Source: Nitrospira sp. (GTDB lineage Bacteria; UBA10199; SBBF01). Taken from it: a stretch of DNA of 39,300 bases. How positions within the stretch are numbered: the stretch's first letter is position 1; each line of letters starts with the position of its first letter. The notes beneath the pieces were generated by a model. That model was given only the letters and a program-made list of their open reading frames with translations. It did not search any database and had not been told where the DNA came from. Location: assembly GCA_005240075.1 (NCBI GenBank), contig SBBF01000009.1:1-39300 (forward strand), given 5' to 3'. This document shows, in pieces, positions 24,045 through 39,243 of this stretch. The position numbers and the translations under genes are program-made.

Positions 24045-24050
24045 ATTTAA
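24012..24050. repeat. 39-bp direct repeat, copy 1 (typA side)
   Basis: Identical over 39 bp to 27446-27484, with unrelated sequence on both flanks. It encodes the N-terminal residues of typA ([12 protein letters not shown], read on the minus strand), which continue here into the rest of the pseudogene. The TAA stop of the ATPase gene at 24047-25459 lies in it. Confidence 0.9.
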
Positions 24051-25459
24051 TTAAAAAAATCATCCAATCCCACAACATCCAGTTCCGGGTGATCCACAAG
24101 ATTTGGGGAAAGCCTGGCATTGGTCACAAGCAATTTTCTTAATGTGTGTTTTTTAGGATTGGGATAACGCTGACACTTTGTTTCCAACTCTTTCATGAGT
24201 TCATAACCAATCTGTGTCTCAGACCACTTGCATTCTCCAATCAGGGTTGTCCGATCACGGCATTCAATAACCAGATCTATTTGCACCCCCGGACCGTGAC
24301 GGACGCTGGATTTATGCCAGTACATTCCCGATCGAACAAACACATCTTCCAAATTCAATTTTTTTAAAATGACTTGAAGGTTTTTATGGCAAAAGACCTC
24401 AAAAGCAAGCCCCAAGTAGGAATGCCACTGTGGTTTGACCAATGTATCAAAAATAAATTTTTTGGAATTGTGTTCAATAGCCTGTCTGTTGGGATGAATG
24501 AATAGAAAATAGAATCTCACGTACTCATCAGTAATTTTATACAGGACAGTTTTAGAAGTTTCTGAAAGTGTGATGGGCCGGTGTTCGTGGATGATGCCGA
24601 TCTCCTTGAGACGATCCACATTGAACATGAGTGAACCTGTGGGTGTTTTGAGGGCACGGGATAAATCCGTCAGCGTCATGGAACGCCTGGCCAAGTGCTG
24701 CAGGATTTTAAAGTATTTTTTTGGCTGTTTGAGTTGACTGGACAGGATATATTTTAACTCATCGACAAAATAAGCATTTTCAACAAAAGACAAATGATTG
24801 ATGTTTTGTTCAAAAGATTGATGGCGATGGTAAAGTTTAAGATAAGCGGGAACAGCTCCAAAACACATAAGATATCGGATGGCATCCCCATTTTTTTTAA
24901 TGCCAAGAAGCTGACGGGCTTCTGAAGAAGTCAGGGCCATTAATTCCAGCGTTTGTGTTCTTCTGCCAAAAAGGGGACTTTTCTCTGCCAACACTTCAGA
25001 AATCATGAAACTGGTGGATGAGCCGCACAGAATCAAATGAACTGTATTGTGATATTGCCAATGATGATCCCACACATGTTGAATGACTGACTGCAACGAA
25101 GAACCGGGTCGGCACATCCACTGAAACTCATCCAGTACGATCACGATTTTGCCCTTCGGCAATTTGCTGACAACGACATCAAAAACTTCACGCCAAGCGG
25201 TCAAGGATAGCAGGGCAATCAAAGGATCACCCGCAAATGCAGAAAAATCCTTCAAGAAGTTCTTGATTTGTTCTTCCTGGGTTCCGTCCAGGGCGCTGTA
25301 GTAGAAAGATGTTTTGTCCGAGCAATAATGCTTTAACAATTCTGTTTTGCCAATGCGGCGCCGGCCGTAAAGGACGCTGAAATGAGAGCGCTTTTCCTGA
25401 TAACATTTATTCAGAAGAAACTGTTCTTTATCACGACCGATGAAATCCAGATTTGACAT
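24047..25459 (-). CDS. Archaeal-type AAA ATPase with DUF234 C-terminus
   Basis: A 470-aa protein. The ATPase_2 domain begins with FIGRDKE and has Walker [13 protein letters not shown] (residues about 31-42) and Walker [24 protein letters not shown] sensor region follows. A winged-helix-like part ([28 protein letters not shown]) is followed by the DUF234 domain with [19 protein letters not shown], a PD-(D/E)XK-like D..E.K pattern. Family roles are poorly known. Its start codon lies inside the first of four ATTTTACTTAAGTAT-type motifs, and its TAA stop lies in the 39-bp repeat, next to the typA remnant. It has no Shine-Dalgarno. Confidence 0.85.
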
Positions 25460-25590: not shown

Positions 25591-26715
25591 TTATTGATGG
25601 CTCAACCAGTGTCTCAAGAGGGGATCTACAACATCAAACCCTTTTTCTCTTTTTTCAATTAAATCGAGTTGAATCAATTTTTTTAAAGCCCCCTGGATTC
25701 CGCCTGTGGAGCCCAGATGGTGGGCTTTAATGTAGTTAAACGAAAAAAGAGAAGGGGAAGGATCCAAAGCCAGCGCTTTAAGGAGGACAATCTGTTGGGG
25801 GGCCAGTCCCTGAAGGATCGCCTCAAAGACCGGCTTTTCCGCATTGATCAAAAGATCAAAGGCGGGCTTTAAATCGGATTCATTCACCTTTTTTTCAGCC
25901 GTCTCGAAAACAAAAAAGGATAACTTTTGGGCATAATAGGGATGTTGATGAACTCTGCTTGATATTTTTTCGGCAACAGGCAAAGGGCATTCTTTTTTCC
26001 CCCTCTGGAATTGATCCACCAAAAAAGGAGCCAGCTCCTCATGCGGAAGGGCTTTGAGTTCGTAATTGAGGGCGCTTTGAAAGAAAGGGCGTTTTCGTTC
26101 ATTGAACATGTCTAACAGAAGTCGGCGCCTTGACCCCACAAAAAAATAAGAGATCGGTTGTTTTTGGATGTGGGAACGCATGATTCCTTCCAGGGAGAGA
26201 GATTCCTTGAGCAATACGATTTCCTGAAATTCATCAAAGACAATCTGTATTTTTATCTTTTTATCCCTGGCGAACTCATCCAGGGACCCTAAGACCTCCT
26301 CGATGGTTTCCAACCCTTTTTGTTTTGTTGTTGCCAGTTCCACAGTCAACGAAAGTTTCCCCTCATCGTCCGGTTTAAGAACAGGCCGGAACGATTTCAA
26401 AAGCCTGATTGATTTTTTAAACCAGTTTTCTTCCTTGCGGGTCATTTCAAAAAAAGCCCTTGCCAGCCGGAACGCAGCCTCCTCGGCCGAAGTGATGCCA
26501 AAAAAGTCGGTAAACAAGGTCAGGTAACCTTGAGTCCCCAATTCTTTTTGAACCCGTTTTACGAGAGAGGTTTTTCCATAACGCCGTGGAGAAAAGAGCA
26601 CCACATTGGCGTTGGCCCGGGCATAACCCAACAAATCCCTTTGTTCCTGTTGACGGTTACAGAAGGGGGAATCAGGATCTATCTCTTTGAAAGTAAAGGG
26701 ATTTATTAATACCAT
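25591..26715 (-). CDS. AAA ATPase (archaeal ATPase_2-like), no nuclease domain
   Basis: A 374-aa protein: NPFTFKEIDPDSPFCNRQQE, then Walker A FSPRRYGKTSLV, Walker B IQIVFDEFQEI and sensor FVGSRRRLL, and a C-terminal winged-helix region (LLKALALDPSP...GGIQGALKKLIQLDLIEKR) ending VVDPLLRHWLS. It lacks a DUF234 domain, which distinguishes it from its neighbour. Such ATPases are common in archaea and deltaproteobacterial genomes and often variable between strains. Transcription likely starts a few nt before the ATG from the promoter at 26725-26753. A palindrome covers the start. The cellular role is unknown. Confidence 0.82.
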   Translation of the reverse strand: MVLINPFTFKEIDPDSPFCNRQQEQRDLLGYARANANVVLFSPRRYGKTSLVKRVQKELGTQGYLTLFTDFFGITSAEEAAFRLARAFFEMTRKEENWFKKSIRLLKSFRPVLKPDDEGKLSLTVELATTKQKGLETIEEVLGSLDEFARDKKIKIQIVFDEFQEIVLLKESLSLEGIMRSHIQKQPISYFFVGSRRRLLLDMFNERKRPFFQSALNYELKALPHEELAPFLVDQFQRGKKECPLPVAEKISSRVHQHPYYAQKLSFFVFETAEKKVNESDLKPAFDLLINAEKPVFEAILQGLAPQQIVLLKALALDPSPSLFSFNYIKAHHLGSTGGIQGALKKLIQLDLIEKREKGFDVVDPLLRHWLSHQ

Positions 26716-27445: not shown

Positions 27446-27484
27446 ATTCCTGATTTTGTCCTGAAGGCTTTGACGTCTATTTAA
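27446..27484. repeat. 39-bp direct repeat, copy 2 (isolated typA 5' fragment)
   Basis: The exact second copy of the typA 5' fragment, with no further typA sequence beside it. The stop codon of the next ATPase gene (27481) lies in it, as the stop of the 24047-25459 ATPase lies in copy 1. Confidence 0.9.
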
Positions 27485-28647
27485 ACAAACGCCGTTAAAA
27501 ATTTATTTGCAGGAATAAGGTGGATGGCATCCTTTACAAATTCCCTCTCCGTTTTTAGTACAACCTGGAATAAAAAAGGGATTTTAAGTCGGCTTCCAAA
27601 GTATTTGAGTGATGGAGAAAGATCATGACCTGAGAGCTTGGCTTCTACCGCAAACCATGGCTTGTTGTTGACGGTTACCAAAAAATCAACCTCCCGTTTA
27701 TCGAGGTCGCGCAAATACCAAAGTTCTATTTTGTAGCCCTCCGTATCCTCCAGGTAATGGCAAAATTTTAACAAGTGGGAGGCCATCATGTTCTCATAGC
27801 GATAACCGACATCTTCAATCAGGGTCCAATCCCAAAGATAGATTTTTGGCTCTTTTTTTAAAGCCCTTACCATGTTTCCTGAGTAGGGGTTGAGGCGGAA
27901 TACATAATAAAGTTTTTCAAAAATAGTCATCCAATGGGTGAGGGCCTTGTGGCTCACTTCAAGGTCTTCACGAAGTGAATTAAGTGACAGAGGGCTCCCT
28001 ACTCTATGAGGCAGGAGATCCGAGAGAAGTTGAATGCTGGACAGGTCGCGAATATTTTCAAGGTCACGCAGATCCTCCCTGAAAAATCGCTCGATGTGTT
28101 CCTTTTGCCAGCGGCGATGTTTTTTAGCATTTTGGGCCAGCAAAGGTTCCGGGAACCCGCTATAGTTCAACAAGGTTTCCAGATTGTTATGATTTTTACT
28201 CAAAAAAGAGAGGGGATCAAAAGGAGACAGTGGATTGATCATATGATTGATTTCATTTTGGCTGAAAGGATGAAGTCGGTAATGATGGTAACGCCCTTGA
28301 AGGGAATCCCCCCCTCGTCGATAGACATCCAAACGGGCACTTCCAGTCACCATAAATTTTAACCGATTTTTATGAATATCATATTCTCCTTTGATCCATT
28401 GTTTCCACTTGCTGTATTTATGAAGTTCATCCAGTACAATCATTCTGGCTTCCGGCGGCCATTGGGACTTGAGCAGAGCCTGACGGTCATGGCGATTATC
28501 CCAAAGGTAATAGGCCCCTGGTCCATTTTGATTGATCATGTTTTGGGCAAGGGTTGTTTTACCCACCTGCCTGGGACCCGCTAAAAAAACCATTTTTTCT
28601 TGAAGGTCTTCTTGAATGGACTCTTCTAAATAACGAGCCAAATTCAT
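27481..28647 (-). CDS. AAA_14 / DUF4143 family ATPase
   Basis: A 388-aa relative of the ATPase at 275-1426. The Walker A is LAGPRQVGKTTLA, the Walker B is MIVLDELHKY, and VTGSARLDVYRRGGDSLQGRYHHYRLHP is the usual conserved stretch. The DUF4143 C-terminus has EVDFLVTVNNKPWFAVEAKLS, again a PD-(D/E)XK-like pattern. ATG 28647 (MNLARYLEES) is the family-like start; the frame is open to a TTG at 28731 overlapping radA. Its TAA stop lies in the 39-bp repeat. Transcription from radA may continue into it, since it lies 80 nt downstream on the same strand. Confidence 0.87.
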   Translation of the reverse strand: MNLARYLEESIQEDLQEKMVFLAGPRQVGKTTLAQNMINQNGPGAYYLWDNRHDRQALLKSQWPPEARMIVLDELHKYSKWKQWIKGEYDIHKNRLKFMVTGSARLDVYRRGGDSLQGRYHHYRLHPFSQNEINHMINPLSPFDPLSFLSKNHNNLETLLNYSGFPEPLLAQNAKKHRRWQKEHIERFFREDLRDLENIRDLSSIQLLSDLLPHRVGSPLSLNSLREDLEVSHKALTHWMTIFEKLYYVFRLNPYSGNMVRALKKEPKIYLWDWTLIEDVGYRYENMMASHLLKFCHYLEDTEGYKIELWYLRDLDKREVDFLVTVNNKPWFAVEAKLSGHDLSPSLKYFGSRLKIPFLFQVVLKTEREFVKDAIHLIPANKFLTAFV

Positions 28648-28727
28648 ATACGATAAATTGTGCCTTAAGGTAAAAAAAATTACAACTTTTTTTTCCTTTG
28701 GGTTAAATTTATTATAAGCCCCGGAGG

Positions 28728-30083
28728 TCAAAAAAGAACTTCCAACACTTGAGAGACATTTTTGACGGCAATCAATTCAAGGGGGAGAGAGGCGAGTTGT
28801 TTTTTAAGGGAGGGGACGAGGCATCGTTTAAAGCCCATTTTGGCCGCTTCTTTAACCCGCACATCCAGCCCCTGAACCGGTCGGATTTCACCCGACAACC
28901 CCACCTCCCCCACAATCAGCGTGTCGGGGCGGACCGGCTTGTTTTTAAAACTGGAAACGAGCGAGGCGAGGATCGCCAAATCAACGGCCGGTTCCACCAC
29001 TTTCAATCCACCCGCCGCGTTGACATAAACATCCTGGGCATACAAATTAAGCCCCACAATTTTTTCCAAGACCGCAATCAATAGTGCGACTCTTCCACTA
29101 TCCACTCCCAGTGTTGTTCGCCGAGGATTGGCCAGGCTCGACTGCGAAACCAATGCCTGGATTTCGATCAGAAAGGGACGCATGCCCTCCAAGGAAGCGG
29201 TAACAACCGAACCGGCGGACCGTTCGGGATGTTCGGATAAAAAAAGGGAGGATGGGTTTTGAACTTCCTGCAATCCACTCTGCGTCATTTCAAAGACCCC
29301 AATTTCATTGGTGGAACCGTAGCGGTTTTTAATCGTCCGTAAAATCCGGTAATGCTGACCGGAGTCCCCTTCAAAATAAAGGACACAATCAACCATATGT
29401 TCCAAAACCCGTGGGCCGGCGAGCGCTCCATCCTTAGTGACATGCCCAATCAGAATAGTTGAAACGCCGACTGTTTTGGAAAGATACAAAAGTTTTCCGG
29501 CCGATTCACGAACCTGGGATACAGAACCGGGGGCTGACTCCAGGTTGGACAAGTAAACGGTCTGAATGGAATCAACCACCACCACCTGCGGTTTTATTTT
29601 TTTGATGTGATCGATGATTCGCTCAATCGAATTTTCGGCAACCACCAAAAGATCGGAAGAAATGTCGAGCCGATCGGCTCTCATTTTAATCTGCTCTTTC
29701 GATTCCTCGCCGGTGGCATAGAGAACTTTGATCCCCTTCTGGCTTAAACGATCGAGCACCTGCAAAATCAGGGTTGACTTGCCGATGCCGGGATCTCCGC
29801 CGATCAACACCAGAGAACCGGGAACAACGCCCCCCCCCAGCACCCGATCGAGTTCATTGATCCCGCAGGAAAAACGGGGCTTGTCGGTCAATTCGATTTT
29901 GTTTAAGGAAACGGCTGTTTCCGTTGTGAGAGAAAAAAAATCCCCGGCGCCGGACAGTGTGGCATTCTGGAAAGTCTCTTCCGCAAAAGTGTTCCACTGG
30001 TTGCAGTCGGGGCATTTGCCCAGCCACTTGGGAGATTGGGACCCGCACGATTGACAGGAATAGATTGTTTTGAGTTTAGGCAT
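28728..30083 (-). CDS. radA: DNA repair protein RadA/Sms
   Basis: A 451-aa RadA, a RecA-like helicase that helps branch migration in recombination repair. A C4 zinc finger uses C10, C13, C24 and C27 (YSCQSCG...GKCPDCNQW). The Walker A is GGDPGIGKST at 95-104. The RadA-specific KNRFG motif is here KNRYG (IKNRYGSTNEIGVFEM). The C-terminus is the Lon-like domain (DVYVNAAGGLKVVEPAVDLAI). Length and order match the family. It is followed downstream by the ATPase with the typA repeat and preceded by the BrnT/BrnA-type pair. Confidence 0.97.
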   Translation of the reverse strand: MPKLKTIYSCQSCGSQSPKWLGKCPDCNQWNTFAEETFQNATLSGAGDFFSLTTETAVSLNKIELTDKPRFSCGINELDRVLGGGVVPGSLVLIGGDPGIGKSTLILQVLDRLSQKGIKVLYATGEESKEQIKMRADRLDISSDLLVVAENSIERIIDHIKKIKPQVVVVDSIQTVYLSNLESAPGSVSQVRESAGKLLYLSKTVGVSTILIGHVTKDGALAGPRVLEHMVDCVLYFEGDSGQHYRILRTIKNRYGSTNEIGVFEMTQSGLQEVQNPSSLFLSEHPERSAGSVVTASLEGMRPFLIEIQALVSQSSLANPRRTTLGVDSGRVALLIAVLEKIVGLNLYAQDVYVNAAGGLKVVEPAVDLAILASLVSSFKNKPVRPDTLIVGEVGLSGEIRPVQGLDVRVKEAAKMGFKRCLVPSLKKQLASLPLELIAVKNVSQVLEVLF

Positions 30084-30690: not shown

Positions 30691-30934
30691 TCAACTATTT
30701 CGTAAGAGGTGGCTCCTTGGGACTTACTCTGGTTGAGACGAAAATGTCAACCTGCTGACTCGACTCCTCAATCGTGGGTGGAGCCCCCCCTTTTTGAGGG
30801 GTCTGTTTTTCAATCCATTCCGCCAAATAAAAATTATATAATAATATCAATAAGTTAAAAATAATAAATTTATAGTTCTTGCTCTCTTTTTGGTATGGAT
30901 CTTGATAGAGTAGAGAGGGAGGGTGGATTTTATC
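30691..30934. other. Intergenic region with hairpin
   Basis: There is no gene here. CCCC (30787-30790) and GGGG (30798-30801) make a short stem followed by a T-run at 30806-30811, resembling a weak terminator on the plus strand with no gene before it. The rest is AT-rich; GGAGGGTGG before 30935 serves the next gene. Confidence 0.35.
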
Positions 30935-33900
30935 ATGACAACATCGTTGTCCCAAATGAGCCGGGAGGAGTACGACCTTCTCGCGTACGGCGATTTTCAT
31001 GCCCAGCTTGATCAGGCAGCCAGTCAGGATCCGCTCTGGGAGACCATCCGGGAAAAATTGGATCAGGAAACCAATCCGATGAGGGTGCCTGACTACGAAA
31101 CTTTTTTCCGGATTTGTCAGGAGACGCTTCATGAACAAGGGATGTTGAGTGACGGAGCGGAAAGCTGGAATCAGGGAACCTATGCTCGTTTTGCTTCTTC
31201 TCAAACTGCCCCTCTGATTCCTTCTTCCGAATATCTTGACATTGAAATGTCTGAGTTCAAACAATTCAACCTTCCCGATTTTATTTTTTATCATCTTGAT
31301 GCGGGGCATATTGGCGAGGCCGATCATCCCGAGCGCGACGGTTGGGGGGATTGGGCCATGCCCGCCTGGGCTCATGCGATGGGCTATGGGCATTTAAGAA
31401 TCACAAATTTTTCTCTGGATCGTTCGTTGACCGATGCGGAGAGACTCCAAAAAATCCGCCAGGAAATTTATACAAAACGGATGAATCTCCGTTTAGACTA
31501 CAGCGAGTGTCGTCGTTATTTGCCGGAGCTGGAAAAAGTGGTGGAGTTGATTGCCGGGAAGATGGGGGTTGTTTATCAGGCTCTTCCCCCTCGTGAAGTG
31601 CCGCACTACGATCTGGCCCTTTCTGTTTCACAGTTGGCGAAAATCCAAAAAGGGGGAACGGTTTGGGGGGTTGATAAGAAAGACAAGGGGATTTTTGAAG
31701 TTCGTTTAAATGCCCAGGCTGTGAGTGACCTGCTTCAAGCCAACGGTTTATCCCCCGATCAGCTTTCAGCCGATTCTGAGGAAGTTGTTTATCTTAAGAT
31801 AAGCCGGGATGCCTTTGGATCAGTCCGTCAGGTGCCTACTATCTCGAGTGCTGATAAACCGCTTCCCAAACCTCTTCTGGAACTTAAATCAAAAAGCAGG
31901 GGAATCCTACTTACAGACTATCAGCAGCCTATGACAGAACCCTCACAACTTCCGGCTCTGGTTCAATATCTTCCGCAGGTGCAGGAGGCCCTTTTCGTAT
32001 TGGGGATGTTGATCAGCCCGATGGCCAGTGCCAATCGAGGAGGAGCTTCCCATGCCCTGATTCAGGGAATGAATCGCGGATACCAAACTACCGGTTTTGT
32101 TCCGCCGAAGAATATGCTGAATCCTCTTTATCCCGAAACGTTTCCAAAACCGCTTCCAGCACCATCAACTCTGCCTCAACCTTCATCTCTCCCCCCTGCA
32201 CTTCCATCGGGGAGTAGGGCTCCTCAACAGATCCATCCTTTAGTGATGCAGGGTTCTGGTTCAACAAACGGCGGGGCATCGGGTTTACAGACTAATCCCT
32301 CCGCAAGCAAAGTTGTCATTCCCTCAACCTCTTCTGTCCCCCCTCCTCTGCCGGGGAGACGACCAGGCACACTATCTCCGTTGTATGACTATGGGGTTGG
32401 ATCAACGGTCTCTCCTTATAACCTGCCGGTAGTTCCTTTTTCTTTATTTCCTTATGCCCCTTCAGCGTTGATGTATGGAGGAGGGATGGAGGCGAACATT
32501 CTTCCTGGTTTTGATGAAGGGCAAGAGATGGACTTGCCGGCGGCAATCCGAGAGTTGGTTATGCAAACGCCGGGACTTTTTACGGATGATTATGATTTGC
32601 CTGGCCATCCAGCGCGGGAAGTGGGCGATCAAGGGCCGATCGGGGATCAGCCGGTAGTAACGGAGGAGATGATTATTGATGAAATCAGAAACGATCCGGA
32701 ATTGAATCGTGAATTTACCCGTCTCTGGATGGAATGGAACCAATACAATCAAGAAAATAATTTTACCAAGGCGAGCCAGGTTTATGCCGAGCTTGTTGAT
32801 CTTTTGGAAACGGCAAAAGCAAGGACCACCCGCAAAGAGGGGATGGTGATGGCGGGGGATTCTCTTGAGGGCTTATTATCCCAGCAGGGAAAAACAAAAA
32901 GTGGAATCCAATTTAAAATAAATGGGGGGCAGGTCATCGTCTATCCTCCCGGTGCGGAAACTGAAATAAGTGTAGGTGGTTTTGGCATTACCGACAGAAG
33001 TGTGGTGAAAATGGATGAGGAGGCTCCCGGTTTATCGGAGCTTTTCAATAATGCTCAGGGACATGTTATCTTCGTGGGTAACGGTTTTAGTGATTACCCT
33101 TTGTCTCTTGCCGAGAGATACAAGCAAGGAGAAATCAGCCACCAACCTATTATTGTTGAATTGTACGATTACAGGCTTGTTCTAGAAGATTTTACAAATT
33201 TAAGGAGAGCTTTTGAAAAGGGAGGTTTTGAATTTCCATCGGAGTTGGAGGGGCCTTATCAAACAGTCAAACGCATTGTTGATGCCATGGATGCCGGGTT
33301 GATTACCTCGTTTACTTATTCAATGGACCTTTTAAAGCAAGCTCTCGAGGCTTCCAATTCTTTTACCTATCAGGGGATAACCTACAAAAAGCCAAAAGAT
33401 ATTTTAGGAGATCATCCAGAGTATGAGCCGGTGCAACGCGATATCAGTGTGGCCAGGCTCAGGCAATATGCCGAAGCCATGGAGGCAGGGCGGTGGGATT
33501 GGGAAAACATGCAAGCACCGAATGTGGATGGAGAGCTGATCGATGACCCTATCGGAATTCTAACAACTCCTTCCGGTAGAAAAATAATCGGAAATGGCCA
33601 TCACCGGTATTTTGCAGCTCAATTAACCGGCACTCCCATTCCCGAAAGCGCCATTCATGATAAAACCACTGGTGATGAACCAAAGTCTCTTTCATGGGAT
33701 CAAGTTGATTGGCTGTGGGTTGACCCCCATGGAGTCTATCCCATTTTAACCCCCCCTTATACAAAAGGACCCGATACTTCCCCTCCCCTCCGGACCACCG
33801 AAACAGAAAAGGGAGATACAGTTATTCATGGTGTAACCAAAGTCGATCATGGAAAATCGGGTGGTGACCCTGATGAAGTTTATATCGATTTTGCCCAACA

Positions 33901-34828
33901 GCCAGGTGTTGCCGTTTCGGCTGTTCTGAAAAGAGTATTACAAGCCGACAAAACCTACCGCGTTACCCGCGAAGCGGATGGGCGGGTGAAGTTTGAGGAA
34001 GTATTTGGGAACGCTCCCCCTCGAGAGGGGGAGATGCGGGCTGAAATGAGTGGCGGACTTTTCGGTTTTGGAAAATCTTGGCAGTGGCAAAGATTTAACA
34101 AGGGGCAATGGGTACCGATAGAAATATCACCAGAAGAGGCTCCGTTGGCAGGAATGGAAAAAACGCCGGATGTCTTGGCGAAAGAACCGATCACCTTCAG
34201 CGAGGTTTTGATGAAATCGGTAGGGAGATTTTATTCTTTCGATTGGTCGTCGCGCGACGGAGTAGCCGTTTATTTTGGAATCGCTTCAGAAAGATTAAAG
34301 ACAGAAGCAAAAATAATTGCCAACCGTCCGCTGGTGGTTGATATGTTTATACATAAAGGCGATCTGGAAACGGCCGATCTGATCCAGCTCCACACCTGGT
34401 GCCGGGAGATTATCAAAGATTATCCCAATCTGGGCGGTTTTAAAATTGTGGTGATGGACAGGCGCGATTATTCAACAGAAGTTTTGACCGATTTCACCAA
34501 CCCCGATTATCAACCGGGTGCGGAACCCAGAAGAATCGAGGAAGAGGAACCTCCCCCTCGTTGGTTAACCACCCCTCCTCCTCCCAAACCTGATGCGATT
34601 CTTCCTATTCCCCGCCTCCGACCTCTGGCCCTGGGCCACAGCGCCGCGACCTTGATGGCAAAGGGAGAAAGGCTCATCGCCAGTTGGGAAGCAGATCCCG
34701 CCAACTACACTCCCGAAAATATCCAAGCCGCCCGCGATGCCCTGACTAAGGCCCAGGATTTGTTTGTGCAAGCGGGAGACGTCGAAAACGCCGCACGAGC
34801 GGAGGGATTGTTGAACCAGTTGAAATGA
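30935..34828 (+). CDS. 1297-aa multidomain protein with ParB-like segment, unknown function
   Basis: A very large protein without signal peptide or clear membrane helix (apart from a weak hydrophobic stretch near LFVLGMLISPM at about 355). The N-terminal 330 residues are globular. Proline-rich linkers lie at about 388-510 and 1200-1225. A helical hairpin (LWMEWNQYNQENNFTKASQVYAELV) resembling a TPR unit follows the first linker. Residues about 825-930 look like a ParB/sulfiredoxin-type fold: ISVARLRQYAEAMEAGRWDWE and GNGHHRYFAAQ (at about 886), the G-HHR phosphate-binding motif. The C-terminus is a two-helix repeat (ARDALTKAQDLFVQAGDVENAARAEG). ATG 30935 with GGAGGGTGG upstream is used. Neighbours give little help. 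It may be an effector or scaffold. Confidence 0.75.
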   Translation: MTTSLSQMSREEYDLLAYGDFHAQLDQAASQDPLWETIREKLDQETNPMRVPDYETFFRICQETLHEQGMLSDGAESWNQGTYARFASSQTAPLIPSSEYLDIEMSEFKQFNLPDFIFYHLDAGHIGEADHPERDGWGDWAMPAWAHAMGYGHLRITNFSLDRSLTDAERLQKIRQEIYTKRMNLRLDYSECRRYLPELEKVVELIAGKMGVVYQALPPREVPHYDLALSVSQLAKIQKGGTVWGVDKKDKGIFEVRLNAQAVSDLLQANGLSPDQLSADSEEVVYLKISRDAFGSVRQVPTISSADKPLPKPLLELKSKSRGILLTDYQQPMTEPSQLPALVQYLPQVQEALFVLGMLISPMASANRGGASHALIQGMNRGYQTTGFVPPKNMLNPLYPETFPKPLPAPSTLPQPSSLPPALPSGSRAPQQIHPLVMQGSGSTNGGASGLQTNPSASKVVIPSTSSVPPPLPGRRPGTLSPLYDYGVGSTVSPYNLPVVPFSLFPYAPSALMYGGGMEANILPGFDEGQEMDLPAAIRELVMQTPGLFTDDYDLPGHPAREVGDQGPIGDQPVVTEEMIIDEIRNDPELNREFTRLWMEWNQYNQENNFTKASQVYAELVDLLETAKARTTRKEGMVMAGDSLEGLLSQQGKTKSGIQFKINGGQVIVYPPGAETEISVGGFGITDRSVVKMDEEAPGLSELFNNAQGHVIFVGNGFSDYPLSLAERYKQGEISHQPIIVELYDYRLVLEDFTNLRRAFEKGGFEFPSELEGPYQTVKRIVDAMDAGLITSFTYSMDLLKQALEASNSFTYQGITYKKPKDILGDHPEYEPVQRDISVARLRQYAEAMEAGRWDWENMQAPNVDGELIDDPIGILTTPSGRKIIGNGHHRYFAAQLTGTPIPESAIHDKTTGDEPKSLSWDQVDWLWVDPHGVYPILTPPYTKGPDTSPPLRTTETEKGDTVIHGVTKVDHGKSGGDPDEVYIDFAQQPGVAVSAVLKRVLQADKTYRVTREADGRVKFEEVFGNAPPREGEMRAEMSGGLFGFGKSWQWQRFNKGQWVPIEISPEEAPLAGMEKTPDVLAKEPITFSEVLMKSVGRFYSFDWSSRDGVAVYFGIASERLKTEAKIIANRPLVVDMFIHKGDLETADLIQLHTWCREIIKDYPNLGGFKIVVMDRRDYSTEVLTDFTNPDYQPGAEPRRIEEEEPPPRWLTTPPPPKPDAILPIPRLRPLALGHSAATLMAKGERLIASWEADPANYTPENIQAARDALTKAQDLFVQAGDVENAARAEGLLNQLK

Positions 34829-35254: not shown

Positions 35255-35281
35255 AGTGGGATAAAGTGGTATATAGGGGGG
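35255..35281 (+). promoter_or_regulatory. MraZ-box operator, three 10-bp-spaced repeats
   Basis: AGTGGGA, AGTGGTA and AGGGGGG repeat at exactly 10-bp intervals (35255, 35265, 35275). Each carries a TGGGN-like core separated by 5 nt, the pattern bound by MraZ in other bacteria. The third core is weaker (GGGGG). Binding here would overlap early transcription from the promoter at 35218 and make mraZ self-repressing. Confidence 0.7.
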
Positions 35282-35414: not shown

Positions 35415-35849
35415 ATGTTTCGAGGGAGATACGAGCATACGATTGATGGAAAAGGGAGGACTTCAATCCCGTCAAAGTTTCGGGAAGTGTTGGCGACCAA
35501 CTACGATGAGCGGCTTATCATCACCAATTTTGACAACTGTTTATGGTCCTATCCGGTGGCGGAATGGCAGGTCATTGAAAACAAAGTGGCGGCTCTTCCC
35601 CAATTTCGGGAGGACGTCAAGGCGCTCCAACGTTTTTTTGTGTCAGCCGCCACGGAGTGCCCGATCGACAAACAGGGGAGGATTTTAATTCCTCCGACTC
35701 TTAGAAGCTATGCCGGTTTGGAGAAAAATATTGTTTTTGTGGGGATGACCAAACGGATTGAAATTTGGTCTCAGGAGCGATGGGCCAAAGATTTTGAAAA
35801 ATCACAAACGCTCGCAGTCAGCGGCAATCTCACCGACTTGGGATTGTAG
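35415..35849 (+). CDS. mraZ: Transcriptional regulator MraZ
   Basis: A 144-aa AbrB-fold protein with the two MraZ half-domains: MFRGRYEHTIDGKGRTSIPSKFREVL at the start and ECPIDKQGRILIPPTLRSYAGL at about residues 77-98. The DxKGR and DKQGRI loops that contact DNA are intact. It should repress its own dcw promoter through the TGGGN repeats at 35255-35281. It is the first gene of the dcw cluster and is followed by a STAS-domain gene after 8 nt. Confidence 0.97.
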   Translation: MFRGRYEHTIDGKGRTSIPSKFREVLATNYDERLIITNFDNCLWSYPVAEWQVIENKVAALPQFREDVKALQRFFVSAATECPIDKQGRILIPPTLRSYAGLEKNIVFVGMTKRIEIWSQERWAKDFEKSQTLAVSGNLTDLGL

Positions 35850-35857
35850 AAAAAATC

Positions 35858-36289
35858 ATGTACGAAATAACTAGGGCCAGCGACATTTCCATTCTTCACC
35901 TCTACGGAGAACTCTCCCTCCTGGAAATGGAATTGCTGGAAAAAACCATTCGTTCGCTCAAACGGCATCAACAGTGCAAAATTCTTTTGGACTTAACCGG
36001 AGTCGATCACCTTCATTTTGAGGTGGCCCGCAAACTGGTGCGGGAAGCGAACCAACTCCGACTGCAGAATGGAGAACTGAAAATCGCGGGAATCAACCAG
36101 CAGGTGCGGCACATTTTTCAATTTACGGGAGCCGACCAGTTTTTGGAGGACTATTCATCCATTTCGGATGCCATCTTGAGTTTTTTGAAGGAAACGAGGC
36201 AGAACGCCGGATTCGAGGAATTGCAGGGGAGCGTGGCTGTTGAAAAAACTCCTAACCAGCGTTGGGCCAATCGGGAGGAGATGATTTAG
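35858..36289 (+). CDS. STAS-domain (anti-sigma antagonist-like) protein
   Basis: A 143-aa STAS fold: ITRASDISILHLYGELSLLEMELLEKTI, CKILLDLTGVDHLHFEVARKLVREANQL, GELKIAGINQQVRHIFQFTGADQFLEDY and a helical tail. The place where SpoIIAA-type antagonists have a phosphorylatable Ser (DSSG) reads LHFEV, so regulation by a kinase at that site is unlikely. It stands between mraZ and rsmH, where normally no gene occurs. It may link envelope regulation to a partner-switch, but no sigma or anti-sigma factor is seen here. Confidence 0.85.
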   Translation: MYEITRASDISILHLYGELSLLEMELLEKTIRSLKRHQQCKILLDLTGVDHLHFEVARKLVREANQLRLQNGELKIAGINQQVRHIFQFTGADQFLEDYSSISDAILSFLKETRQNAGFEELQGSVAVEKTPNQRWANREEMI

Positions 36290-36297
36290 AATTTATA

Positions 36298-37176
36298 ATG
36301 CATGTTACTGTTTTAAGGCAGGAGGTGGTTGATTTCCTGCACATTCAAAAAGAGGGTTTTTATCTCGATGCCACAGCAGGGGAAGGAGGGCACGCTGAAG
36401 AAATTTTAAAAAGGCTTGGGAGTCTTGGGCGGCTGATGTTGAGCGATTGCGATCCAGCCGCTTATACCAACCTTCAAAAAAAATTTGGAAATGATTCTCG
36501 TTGTCAGGTCGTCCGAAAAAGATTTTCCGAGCTCTTTGATATCACAACAAAAAACCAGGGTTGTTTTCAGGGAATCGTGGCCGATCTCGGCTTTTCAAGC
36601 GTCCAATTAAATGACCCGCAGAGAGGTTTGAGTTTCCAAGCAGACGGGCCGCTCGACATGCGGCTTGATTCCAGAAGATCCGCGACGGCGGCTGATTTGC
36701 TGGATGAGATGGATGAAAAAGATTTGGCCGATTTGTTCTGGCGATTTGGGGAGGAAAGGGGATCGAGAAGGATAGCCCGCGAAATTGTAAGGAGAAGGAA
36801 TGAGGCTCCCCTGGAAACAACGGCTGAACTAGCCGGGCTTGCTGTACAAGTTCTGGGGCCTCTGTATCGAAGGCAAAAAATTCATCCGGCGACCCGGATT
36901 TTTCAGGCTTTGAGAATTGCGGTGAACCATGAGCTGGAAGAATTACATGCTTTGCTGAAACTTCTTCCGGTTCTGCTGGCGCCAGGAGGAAGAGCGGTTT
37001 TGATTTCTTTTCATTCTTTGGAGGATCGGATCGTCAAAAATGAATTCAAACGGTTAAAGGGAGAAGGGTGGCAGATCATCACAAAAAAACCGGTTGTCCC
37101 GGCGGATGAAGAAATAAAGGGCAACCCTCGAAGCAGAAGCGCGAAGTTAAGAGTGATTGAAAAAGGAGGACGATGA
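36298..37176 (+). CDS. rsmH: 16S rRNA (cytosine(1402)-N(4))-methyltransferase
   Basis: A 292-aa RsmH (MraW). The SAM-binding signature is FYLDATAGEGGHAEEIL at about 24-40, with MLSDCDPAAY, IVADLGFSSVQLND and the DMRLD segment present. The typical C-terminal HPATRIFQALRIAVNHELEEL, LISFHSLEDRIVK and NPRSRSAKLRV follow. It methylates 16S rRNA at C1402. I start at ATG 36298 (MHVTVLRQEV), the family-like start, 9 nt after the STAS stop; GGGAGGAG lies 18 nt upstream, somewhat far. The ftsL ATG overlaps its stop by 4 nt. Confidence 0.97.
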   Translation: MHVTVLRQEVVDFLHIQKEGFYLDATAGEGGHAEEILKRLGSLGRLMLSDCDPAAYTNLQKKFGNDSRCQVVRKRFSELFDITTKNQGCFQGIVADLGFSSVQLNDPQRGLSFQADGPLDMRLDSRRSATAADLLDEMDEKDLADLFWRFGEERGSRRIAREIVRRRNEAPLETTAELAGLAVQVLGPLYRRQKIHPATRIFQALRIAVNHELEELHALLKLLPVLLAPGGRAVLISFHSLEDRIVKNEFKRLKGEGWQIITKKPVVPADEEIKGNPRSRSAKLRVIEKGGR

Positions 37177-37526
37177 GCAGAGTTTATACTCCCTGGGCGA
37201 TGGAGGCTCCTGTCATCAGGCGCCAGAGGGCGTATACCAAAGAGGATTTTTTAAAAACAAGGCTGTTGTTCAAAATCCTCTTTCTGGTCGCCTTCATGGC
37301 TATTTTGAGTCTCTTTTATATCTGGTCGCGGGTGCAGATTGTTCAGTACGGTTACGAGATCAACGAACTGCGGGGAAAGCATCAGGTGCTAACTGAACAA
37401 AACAAAAAATTGAAAGTGGAGGTGGCCACGCTGAAGTCGCCACAACGGATCGAAACACTGGCGGTGGAGAAACTAAAAATGCAATCACCGAAGCAGGAGC
37501 AAATTAGACTCCTGCCTGAATTTTAA
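37173..37526 (+). CDS. ftsL: Cell division protein FtsL
   Basis: A 117-aa bitopic membrane protein: a basic cytoplasmic N-terminus, one transmembrane helix (about 32-50, ILFLVAFMAILSLFYIW) and a periplasmic coiled coil (YGYEINELRGKHQVLTEQNKKLKVEV...LKSPQRIETLAVEKL). The shape, size and position between rsmH and ftsI identify FtsL, although sequence conservation is low. It starts in an ATGA overlap with rsmH. It acts in the divisome with FtsB and FtsQ. Confidence 0.9.
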   Translation: MSRVYTPWAMEAPVIRRQRAYTKEDFLKTRLLFKILFLVAFMAILSLFYIWSRVQIVQYGYEINELRGKHQVLTEQNKKLKVEVATLKSPQRIETLAVEKLKMQSPKQEQIRLLPEF

Positions 37527-37533
37527 ATTTTCT

Positions 37534-39243
37534 ATGAGTTCTCTTAAATGGATCAAGCTTCGAATTCTCTTAACGAGCCTTGGCTTTGTGATTTTTTTGG
37601 GGTGTCTCCTTTTTCGAAGCTACCATTTGCAGGTGGCGAAAAATGGCCGCCTTTTTGATTTGGCGTCCCACCAGTACCAGGCTCGCCTACCGGTTGTTGC
37701 CAAGAGAGGAACGATCGTTGACCGAAACGGGCAGGCTCTTGCCATAGATGTGCAAGTAGCCTCCGTGGGAATTCATCCTTCCCAGATTAAAAATGCCGAT
37801 CCAGTGATTTTACAGTTGAGTTCGGTCTTGAAACTCTCCAAAGAAAAAATCAAAGCCAAACTCAATTCCTCCAAAAAATTTGAATGGGTGACAAGAAGAA
37901 TTTCGGCGGAAACGGGAGATGTCCTGCGTCGTCTCAAGTTGGATGGCGTGGTGGTGGCGACTGAATACAAGCGGTTCTATCCCAACAAGGAAATCGCAGG
38001 ACATCTTTTGGGGGCTGTGGGGTACGACGCCAAGGCGCTGGGAGGGTTGGAGCTGGCATTTGATAATTTCTTGAAATCGTTCCCCCAAAGCCAGTTGGCT
38101 GAAAAAGATGCCAAGGGGCGTCTGTTTACGCCGGTAGCCTCCCAGGAAATTTTTCATGATATTCATCTGACGATTGATCTGAATCTTCAATTCATCGCGG
38201 AAAAATATTTGAGGGAGAACGCCCAGAAATACAAAGCTAAAAGCGGATTTGCCCTGATTATCGATCCTCACACGGGTGAAATTCTGGCGATGGCCAATTA
38301 TCCTTTCTTTAATCCGAATCTCTATTGGGAATACCCCGCCGAACACTGGAAAAATCATGCCTTAATCGACACCTTTGAGCCGGGTTCCACTTTCAAGGCG
38401 GTGTTGGTTTCATCCGCCCTGGATACGGGAAAGGTCAATCCGGAGAGCCTCTTTTTTTGTGAGAATGGCACCTACCAGGTGGAAAAACGGACCATCCATG
38501 ATCATGCCCCTTACGGCAACATGACCGTCAAAGACATTATCAAAGTTTCTTCCAATATCGGAGTGACCAAAATCGCCCAAAAGATTGGGAAACAGGCGCT
38601 CTACGATACAATCGTTGCCCTGGGCTTTGGCCAAAAACCGGGCCTTGATTTTCCGGGGGAGGAACAGGGGATTTTGAGGAATGTCAAGGGATGGTCGGCG
38701 CTCGATCAATCCAATATTGCTTTTGGTCAGGGGATTTCAGTAACCGGCCTGCAGATGGCGCAGGCTTACGCGACGTTTGCCAATAGCGGAATTCGGATGA
38801 AATCTTTTCTGCTTTCAAAAGTGGTCAGCTCGGAGGGGGAGGAGATTTTGAGGCAATATCCTTCGGAAGCGGGTGTTGTTTTAAAAAGCCGGACAGCTAC
38901 CCAGGTTACTCAAATGTTGGAAGGAGTTGTGGATGAAGGGGGGACCGGACAGCTCGCCAATCTGGAAGGCTATCCCGTTGCCGGAAAGACCGGAACGGCG
39001 CAAAAGGTTGATTCCAAAACCAGGCAGTATGCGCCGGGGAAATATGTCAGTTCGTTTATCGGTTATGTGCCGGCTTCCTCTCCCGAGTTTGTGATCTATG
39101 TGGTTTATGATACCCCCACCCCGCAGTACTATGGGGGCGTGGTGGCGGCGCCGGTATTTAAAAATATTGCGCGGGAAGCGCTGGCTTATCGGGGGGTGCC
39201 TCCGGTGGCTGAAACAAGGTTGGCGAGGCAGGGCAACCTGTAG
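37534..39243 (+). CDS. ftsI: Penicillin-binding protein, FtsI type
   Basis: A 569-aa class B PBP for septal peptidoglycan transpeptidation. A single N-terminal transmembrane helix (about 9-28) is followed by the dimerisation part (ARLPVVAKRGTIVDRNGQALA). The transpeptidase motifs are SxxK at S285 (PGSTFK), SxN at 339-341 (SSN) and KTG at 485-487 (GKTGTAQ). The length is typical for FtsI. There is no PASTA domain. It lies 7 nt after ftsL in the dcw order. Its TAG stop lies in the repeat at the window end. Confidence 0.97.
   Translation: MSSLKWIKLRILLTSLGFVIFLGCLLFRSYHLQVAKNGRLFDLASHQYQARLPVVAKRGTIVDRNGQALAIDVQVASVGIHPSQIKNADPVILQLSSVLKLSKEKIKAKLNSSKKFEWVTRRISAETGDVLRRLKLDGVVVATEYKRFYPNKEIAGHLLGAVGYDAKALGGLELAFDNFLKSFPQSQLAEKDAKGRLFTPVASQEIFHDIHLTIDLNLQFIAEKYLRENAQKYKAKSGFALIIDPHTGEILAMANYPFFNPNLYWEYPAEHWKNHALIDTFEPGSTFKAVLVSSALDTGKVNPESLFFCENGTYQVEKRTIHDHAPYGNMTVKDIIKVSSNIGVTKIAQKIGKQALYDTIVALGFGQKPGLDFPGEEQGILRNVKGWSALDQSNIAFGQGISVTGLQMAQAYATFANSGIRMKSFLLSKVVSSEGEEILRQYPSEAGVVLKSRTATQVTQMLEGVVDEGGTGQLANLEGYPVAGKTGTAQKVDSKTRQYAPGKYVSSFIGYVPASSPEFVIYVVYDTPTPQYYGGVVAAPVFKNIAREALAYRGVPPVAETRLARQGNL

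Follow-up and report, generated by a model that had tools for sequence, protein, structure and literature searches.

A STAS-domain gene between mraZ and rsmH that looks like an overlooked member of the dcw cluster

The gene between mraZ and rsmH in a 39,300-nucleotide stretch of DNA from Nitrospira sp. (hereafter the window) encodes a single STAS domain of a distinct, conserved subfamily. Comparison of gene order indicates that it belongs to the dcw cluster, as its co-linear position is conserved in 34 of 41 genomes of the same class and also in other phyla, and on these grounds it looks like an overlooked cluster member rather than a chance insertion. The protein represents a STAS branch that has evolved away from phosphorylation. 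We tentatively propose that it acts as a phosphorylation-independent adaptor at the MraZ/RsmH node.

Few bacterial gene neighbourhoods are as highly conserved as the beginning of the dcw cluster with mraZ and rsmH, and to our knowledge it is still an open question why its first two genes encode a transcription factor and an rRNA methyltransferase. A third gene that several deep lineages retain exactly between the two, with its key residue cleanly changed, offers a testable handle on that question. No description of this gene was found in the open-licence full-text literature, and one may exist elsewhere. The cluster as listed in the relevant passage of PMC8871954 has no STAS gene, and neither mraZ nor cell division occurs in a review of non-canonical STAS proteins (PMC8256260).

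The STAS gene, its neighbours and its predicted fold

The coordinates of the open reading frames, together with the PF01740, TIGR00242 and TIGR00006 scores (Table 1), bear out the earlier note, which had recognized a STAS protein between mraZ and rsmH. The gene starts 8 nt past the stop of mraZ (35849) and ends 8 nt ahead of the rsmH ATG (36298). This ATG is the real start of rsmH; the listed TTG at 36262 would overlap the STAS gene. The intergenic spacing is tight in most members of the family, with the STAS gene overlapping rsmH in some genomes, and because of this spacing the gene is very likely co-transcribed with mraZ from the mraZ promoter.

Table 1. Features of the dcw locus in the window, with the matches or patterns on which each assignment rests.
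Feature	Position	Strand	Evidence
Candidate MraZ operator, upstream of mraZ	35257..35281	+	three TGGG-like units at 10-nt period; 10/12 pattern bases
mraZ	35415..35849	+	PF02381 116 bits; TIGR00242 145 bits (cut-off 98)
dcw-linked STAS protein gene	35858..36289	+	143 aa, ATG start; PF01740 47.3 bits
Codons of residues 51-55 (HLHFE) of the STAS protein	36008..36022	+	family alignment and column counts
rsmH (mraW)	36298..37176	+	PF01795 321 bits; TIGR00006 312 bits (cut-off 154); ATG at 36298
ftsL	37173..37526	+	TIGR02209 47 bits (cut-off 42)
FtsI-type penicillin-binding protein gene	37534..39243	+	PF00905 273 bits; PF03717 77 bits

Upstream of mraZ lies an array of TGGG-like repeats, the consensus of which we take, from work on E. 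coli MraZ, to be the MraZ operator. The 10/12 match in the window is equalled by 5% of shuffles and is therefore weak alone. Most relatives have arrays of this type, with the same 10-nt period, ahead of mraZ, and at six loci (L079, L085, L101, L122, L130 and L131) all 12 bases match. With such a candidate operator ahead of mraZ, the STAS protein would be made under MraZ control. The locus in the window has no kinase or phosphatase gene, and no stressosome genes stand beside the STAS gene.

Several other features of the window were recorded. An open reading frame of 1301 aa (30923-34828), with no Pfam match, immediately precedes the dcw cluster. The adjoining genes for a HepT-like protein and a minimal nucleotidyltransferase (1458-2283) form an MNT/HepT-type toxin-antitoxin pair. 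There are also two AAA_14/DUF4143 ATPases (245-1426 and 27481-28731) and, by eye, two further ATPase-like open reading frames (24047-25459 and 25591-26715).

The PF01740 match covers residues 3-105 of the 143-residue protein and scores 47.3 bits, compared to a curated cut-off of 22.6; the score with TIGR00377 (anti-sigma factor antagonist) is 42.9, below the curated cut-off of 53.45. The open reading frame stands alone and carries the STAS domain only, without the attached transmembrane transporter domain that would place it among the SulP/SLC26 proteins. The mlaB_1 model gives a weak match (E 6e-4) in one of 34 family members and none in the window protein. NCBIfam contains no model specific to this group; its 34 members are matched only by broad anti-sigma antagonist models and a handful of other models. 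In the class alignment, many of these proteins terminate in Trp-His, Trp-Gln, Leu-Gln or Cys just before rsmH.

The AlphaFold2 model, built with 34 family rows, has STAS topology and a mean pLDDT of 89, with residues 1-110 mostly above 90. Structure comparison revealed SpoIIAA, RsbV, RsbS and TM1442/TM1081 as the closest solved folds; it yields the common STAS fold only, and a shared fold is no proof of function.

Loss of the phosphosite

Alignments to TM1442 and SpoIIAA revealed that the canonical D-S-x-G motif reads His53-Phe54-Glu55-Val56 in the window protein, which places Phe54 at the phosphoserine position; the aligned Ser of TM1442 and SpoIIAA is presumably the phosphorylated one. A family signature H-h-[DNH]-[YF]-[KR] stands where other STAS proteins have [FYW]-h-[DN]-S-[SAT]. 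Ser or Thr occupies the phosphosite column in none of the 69 unique dcw copies (identical rows removed), compared to 48 of 50 STAS proteins encoded elsewhere, a control set taken from good matches to the dcw profiles and thus chosen against the contrast. The absence of the usual phosphoserine site, which the earlier note had seen in the one protein, is thereby a property of the whole family. Any action of these proteins must consequently be phosphorylation-independent at that site.

The replacing residue is aromatic in most members. Among the 34 unique class proteins the column holds Tyr in 28, Phe in four and Leu in two; outside the class Tyr is found in 14 of 20 members, the rest having Leu, Phe, Val, Glu, Gly or His. 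A further 15 members from the phylum of G255 all have Tyr (21/21 dcw rows, six of them repeats). Three columns before the phosphosite, 30 of 37 ordinary STAS proteins have an aromatic residue, whereas 41 of 44 class rows have His there, as do 9 of 20 rows from outside the class. Glu55 as a phospho-mimic was considered and ruled out, since it is Phe54 that aligns with the phosphosite, where most members have Tyr.

The best solved sequence relatives, SpoIIAA and RsbV (TIGR00377, TIGR02886), are likewise single STAS domains with the same fold throughout (1thn_B, Z 17.9, rmsd 1.6, 111 aligned). Unlike them, the dcw protein has its phosphoserine replaced, sits in the dcw operon and has no kinase or phosphatase gene at its locus. 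The stressosome proteins RsbS and RsbR also share the STAS fold (6jhk_B, RsbS, Z 17.1), their sequence match being barely detectable (E 0.007-0.009). The review PMC8256260 describes SypA, a non-canonical STAS-only protein, as acting while unphosphorylated, on targets still to be identified; it retains Ser56, which is phosphorylated, and has its own kinase/phosphatase, SypE. Both are missing from the dcw family. The canonical STAS protein of the window's own genome (contig C66, L001:1486-1818) is 21% identical to the dcw protein. In contrast to the latter, it keeps a DSS motif, and its gene adjoins one for a HATPase-GAF-SpoIIE protein and sigma-54 activators.

Conservation of the gene, selection and origin

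An initial contig search with the window protein alone as query recovered no relative. A protein search of 99 genomes, followed by rsmH and mraZ searches in 46 genomes of the window's class, presumably GTDB UBA10199, revealed mraZ and rsmH on one contig in 41, with the STAS gene between them in 34. The domain ends are 378-587 bp apart in these filled junctions. The remaining seven junctions (G012, G022, G024, G027, G032, G037 and G041) have no STAS gene between mraZ and rsmH and are empty, with gaps of 26-87 bp. Five genomes stand outside the count (G004, G008, G026, G038 and G043), as rsmH and/or an intact mraZ is absent from a shared contig. In a family profile search, the best class matches (E<1e-34) are the 34 copies at the junction; STAS genes at other sites score far lower. 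On a tree of MraZ+RsmH for the 41 genomes, two changes account for the absences, and one falls within a family whose other members have the gene. Loss is thus rare, and the gene is old in the class and was lost at least once.

Outside the class, 385 genomes were searched by profile and the neighbourhoods of 40 matches (38 outside the class) were checked, which revealed the order mraZ-STAS-rsmH in 11 outside genomes. Two Candidatus Eisenbacteria loci (L073 and L074) have it as well, as do three of three genomes of the phylum of G216 and 18 of 20 of the phylum of G255, where it was not found in G399 and G400. A census independent of the STAS score covered the first 80 outside genomes (G046-G125) and counted every mraZ directly before rsmH within 700 bp. 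Such a junction is present in 63 of the 80, and 17 of the 63 are longer than 260 bp. Eleven contain a STAS gene; ten of these are clear, and the eleventh (G070) is divergent, with the signature HLDYR and 25.9 bits with a second profile.

Three outside junctions stand out. The open reading frame in G096 (L124:322-708, minus strand) may be a very divergent STAS gene; it reaches neither profile and was left out of the count. In G112 (L121:568-816), one of the 17 long junctions, a MerR-type regulator (PF00376, 38 bits) takes the place of the STAS gene, indicating that the junction also accepts other regulators. The dcw STAS frame of G102 (L129:602-946) seems broken near its end, with odd residues past the GLN motif, perhaps through an assembly error.

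Close pairs gave dN of 0.02-0.13 compared to dS of 0.19-2.1, with dS near saturation for most pairs and no finite dS for two of the seven. The cleanest pair, from Eisenbacteria, has a dN of 0.02 and a dS of 0.19. As dN lies far below dS, these substitution rates indicate that the protein is maintained by purifying selection. A random insertion, or absence from all close relatives, had been named in the earlier note as what would speak against its reading, together with a call to survey the junction; the gene fills 34 of the 41 class junctions, and its conserved position and the purifying selection rule out a random insertion.

A single origin is suggested, not proved, by the trees. After removal of the signature columns and of four long rows, 51 dcw rows lie on one side of a branch and 35 other STAS proteins on the other (support 88, not starred). 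With all rows kept, the split is not clean and requires three changes.

Possible partners and roles

From its position and the structure of the operon, coupling of the STAS protein to cell-wall gene expression is plausible. We propose that the face which meets the anti-sigma kinase in SpoIIAA and RsbV has been rebuilt around an aromatic residue, and that this face would meet a different partner, one whose gene belongs to the dcw operon or shares its control, the protein thus serving as a phosphorylation-independent, protein-binding adaptor. The partner would most likely be MraZ, of which the oligomer or the operator binding might be altered, and less likely RsmH. Since the STAS gene would itself be expressed under MraZ control, the protein could serve as a feedback arm, setting how strongly division and cell-wall genes are expressed. 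Rather than to phosphorylation, it may respond to protein abundance or to a small ligand. Against the adaptor counts that the gene is dispensed with in seven class genomes and in most of the outside junctions sampled.

Co-evolutionary comparisons did not point to MraZ in particular. Distance-matrix correlation (mirror-tree) gave r values of 0.70 for the STAS protein with RsmH and 0.63 with MraZ, and so does not favour MraZ. MraZ proteins carry DxxxR motifs, and residue 87, the third residue of the second DxQGR loop (35673-35675 in the window), is Gln, Asn or Pro in the 34 class genomes with the STAS gene and Ser or Ala in the seven without it. It splits the two groups perfectly and has changed in both lineages of loss. 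As a co-varying contact, however, it is reduced to a lead, because 44 of 368 pseudo-loss sets (12%) also give a perfectly separating MraZ column and no such association exists beyond the class. Open frames of 293-314 aa in some genomes, considered as MraZ-STAS fusions, turned out to be out-of-frame extensions.

A more specific version of the proposal, to which we give somewhat less credence than to the adaptor in general, is that the protein is an undescribed third component of the MraZ/RsmH node, namely a STAS domain without phosphorylation turned MraZ co-regulator and possibly sensing a ligand via the rebuilt His/Tyr/Lys site. If true, several bacterial phyla would set division and cell-wall gene expression by an anti-anti-sigma-type protein unrelated to sigma factors.

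Among the alternatives to an adaptor at the MraZ/RsmH node, the one that survives best, itself unlikely, is that the STAS protein binds FtsL, FtsI or another division or peptidoglycan protein, and that stoichiometry keeps its gene in the operon, without any transcriptional role. The genes for FtsL and an FtsI-type penicillin-binding protein come next in the operon, and STAS domains are general protein-binding modules that are also attached to membrane transporters. Nevertheless, the gene is fixed between regulatory and RNA-modifying genes rather than beside ftsL or ftsI, and nothing points to a membrane partner.

We give slightly less weight still to RsmH as the partner, in which case the STAS protein would tune the activity or stability of the 16S rRNA methyltransferase. 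The gene stands directly upstream of rsmH, and the STAS-RsmH correlation is the higher of the two; immediate neighbours, however, correlate anyway, and none of 287-288 RsmH columns separates the class genomes with the STAS gene from those without it.

The earlier note had suggested that the protein could couple cell-wall gene expression to a partner switch independent of phosphorylation, with anti-sigma partners to be sought elsewhere. Independence from phosphorylation at that site and a conserved place in the dcw operon are supported; a partner switch in the anti-sigma sense is not, and a classical switch by this protein is unlikely. RsbW-like proteins do occur in many class genomes, the window's own included, where the one strong RsbW-like ATPase is part of the HATPase-GAF-SpoIIE protein on contig C66 and thus adjoins a different STAS gene. 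Among the 34 class genomes that carry the dcw STAS gene, 8 (cut 1e-8) to 10 (cut 1e-9) give no RsbW-like match, while all seven without the gene give one (Fisher p 0.31 and 0.16 at the two cuts), with no positive association. Moreover, when 18 of the 46 class genomes were searched for STAS proteins, the dcw copy was the only one detected in G013, G015, G018, G023 and G040. Completeness is 100% for G013, 98% for G018 and only 73% for G040, and G015 has 8% contamination. The second STAS domain of G010, G028, G033 and G036 lies in frames of transporter size (513-589 aa). Because RsbW-like matches are missing from 8-10 of the 34 genomes and the dcw copy is the sole STAS protein detected in five, a conventional anti-sigma partner appears unnecessary for the family.

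The same counts make it improbable that the protein is a constitutive anti-anti-sigma factor, non-phosphorylatable and permanently titrating an RsbW-type anti-sigma kinase. It shares the fold of SpoIIAA and RsbV, and RsbW-like proteins are at hand in many class genomes, but the residue at the contact is now a bulky aromatic. Equally improbable is a near-neutral passenger that merely keeps mraZ and rsmH translationally coupled: the STAS protein is the most divergent of the three (mean distance 0.67, compared to 0.35 for MraZ and 0.53 for RsmH) and two changes within the class are required to explain where it is present, whereas purifying selection on it is strong and the signature His/Tyr is conserved and common to different phyla.
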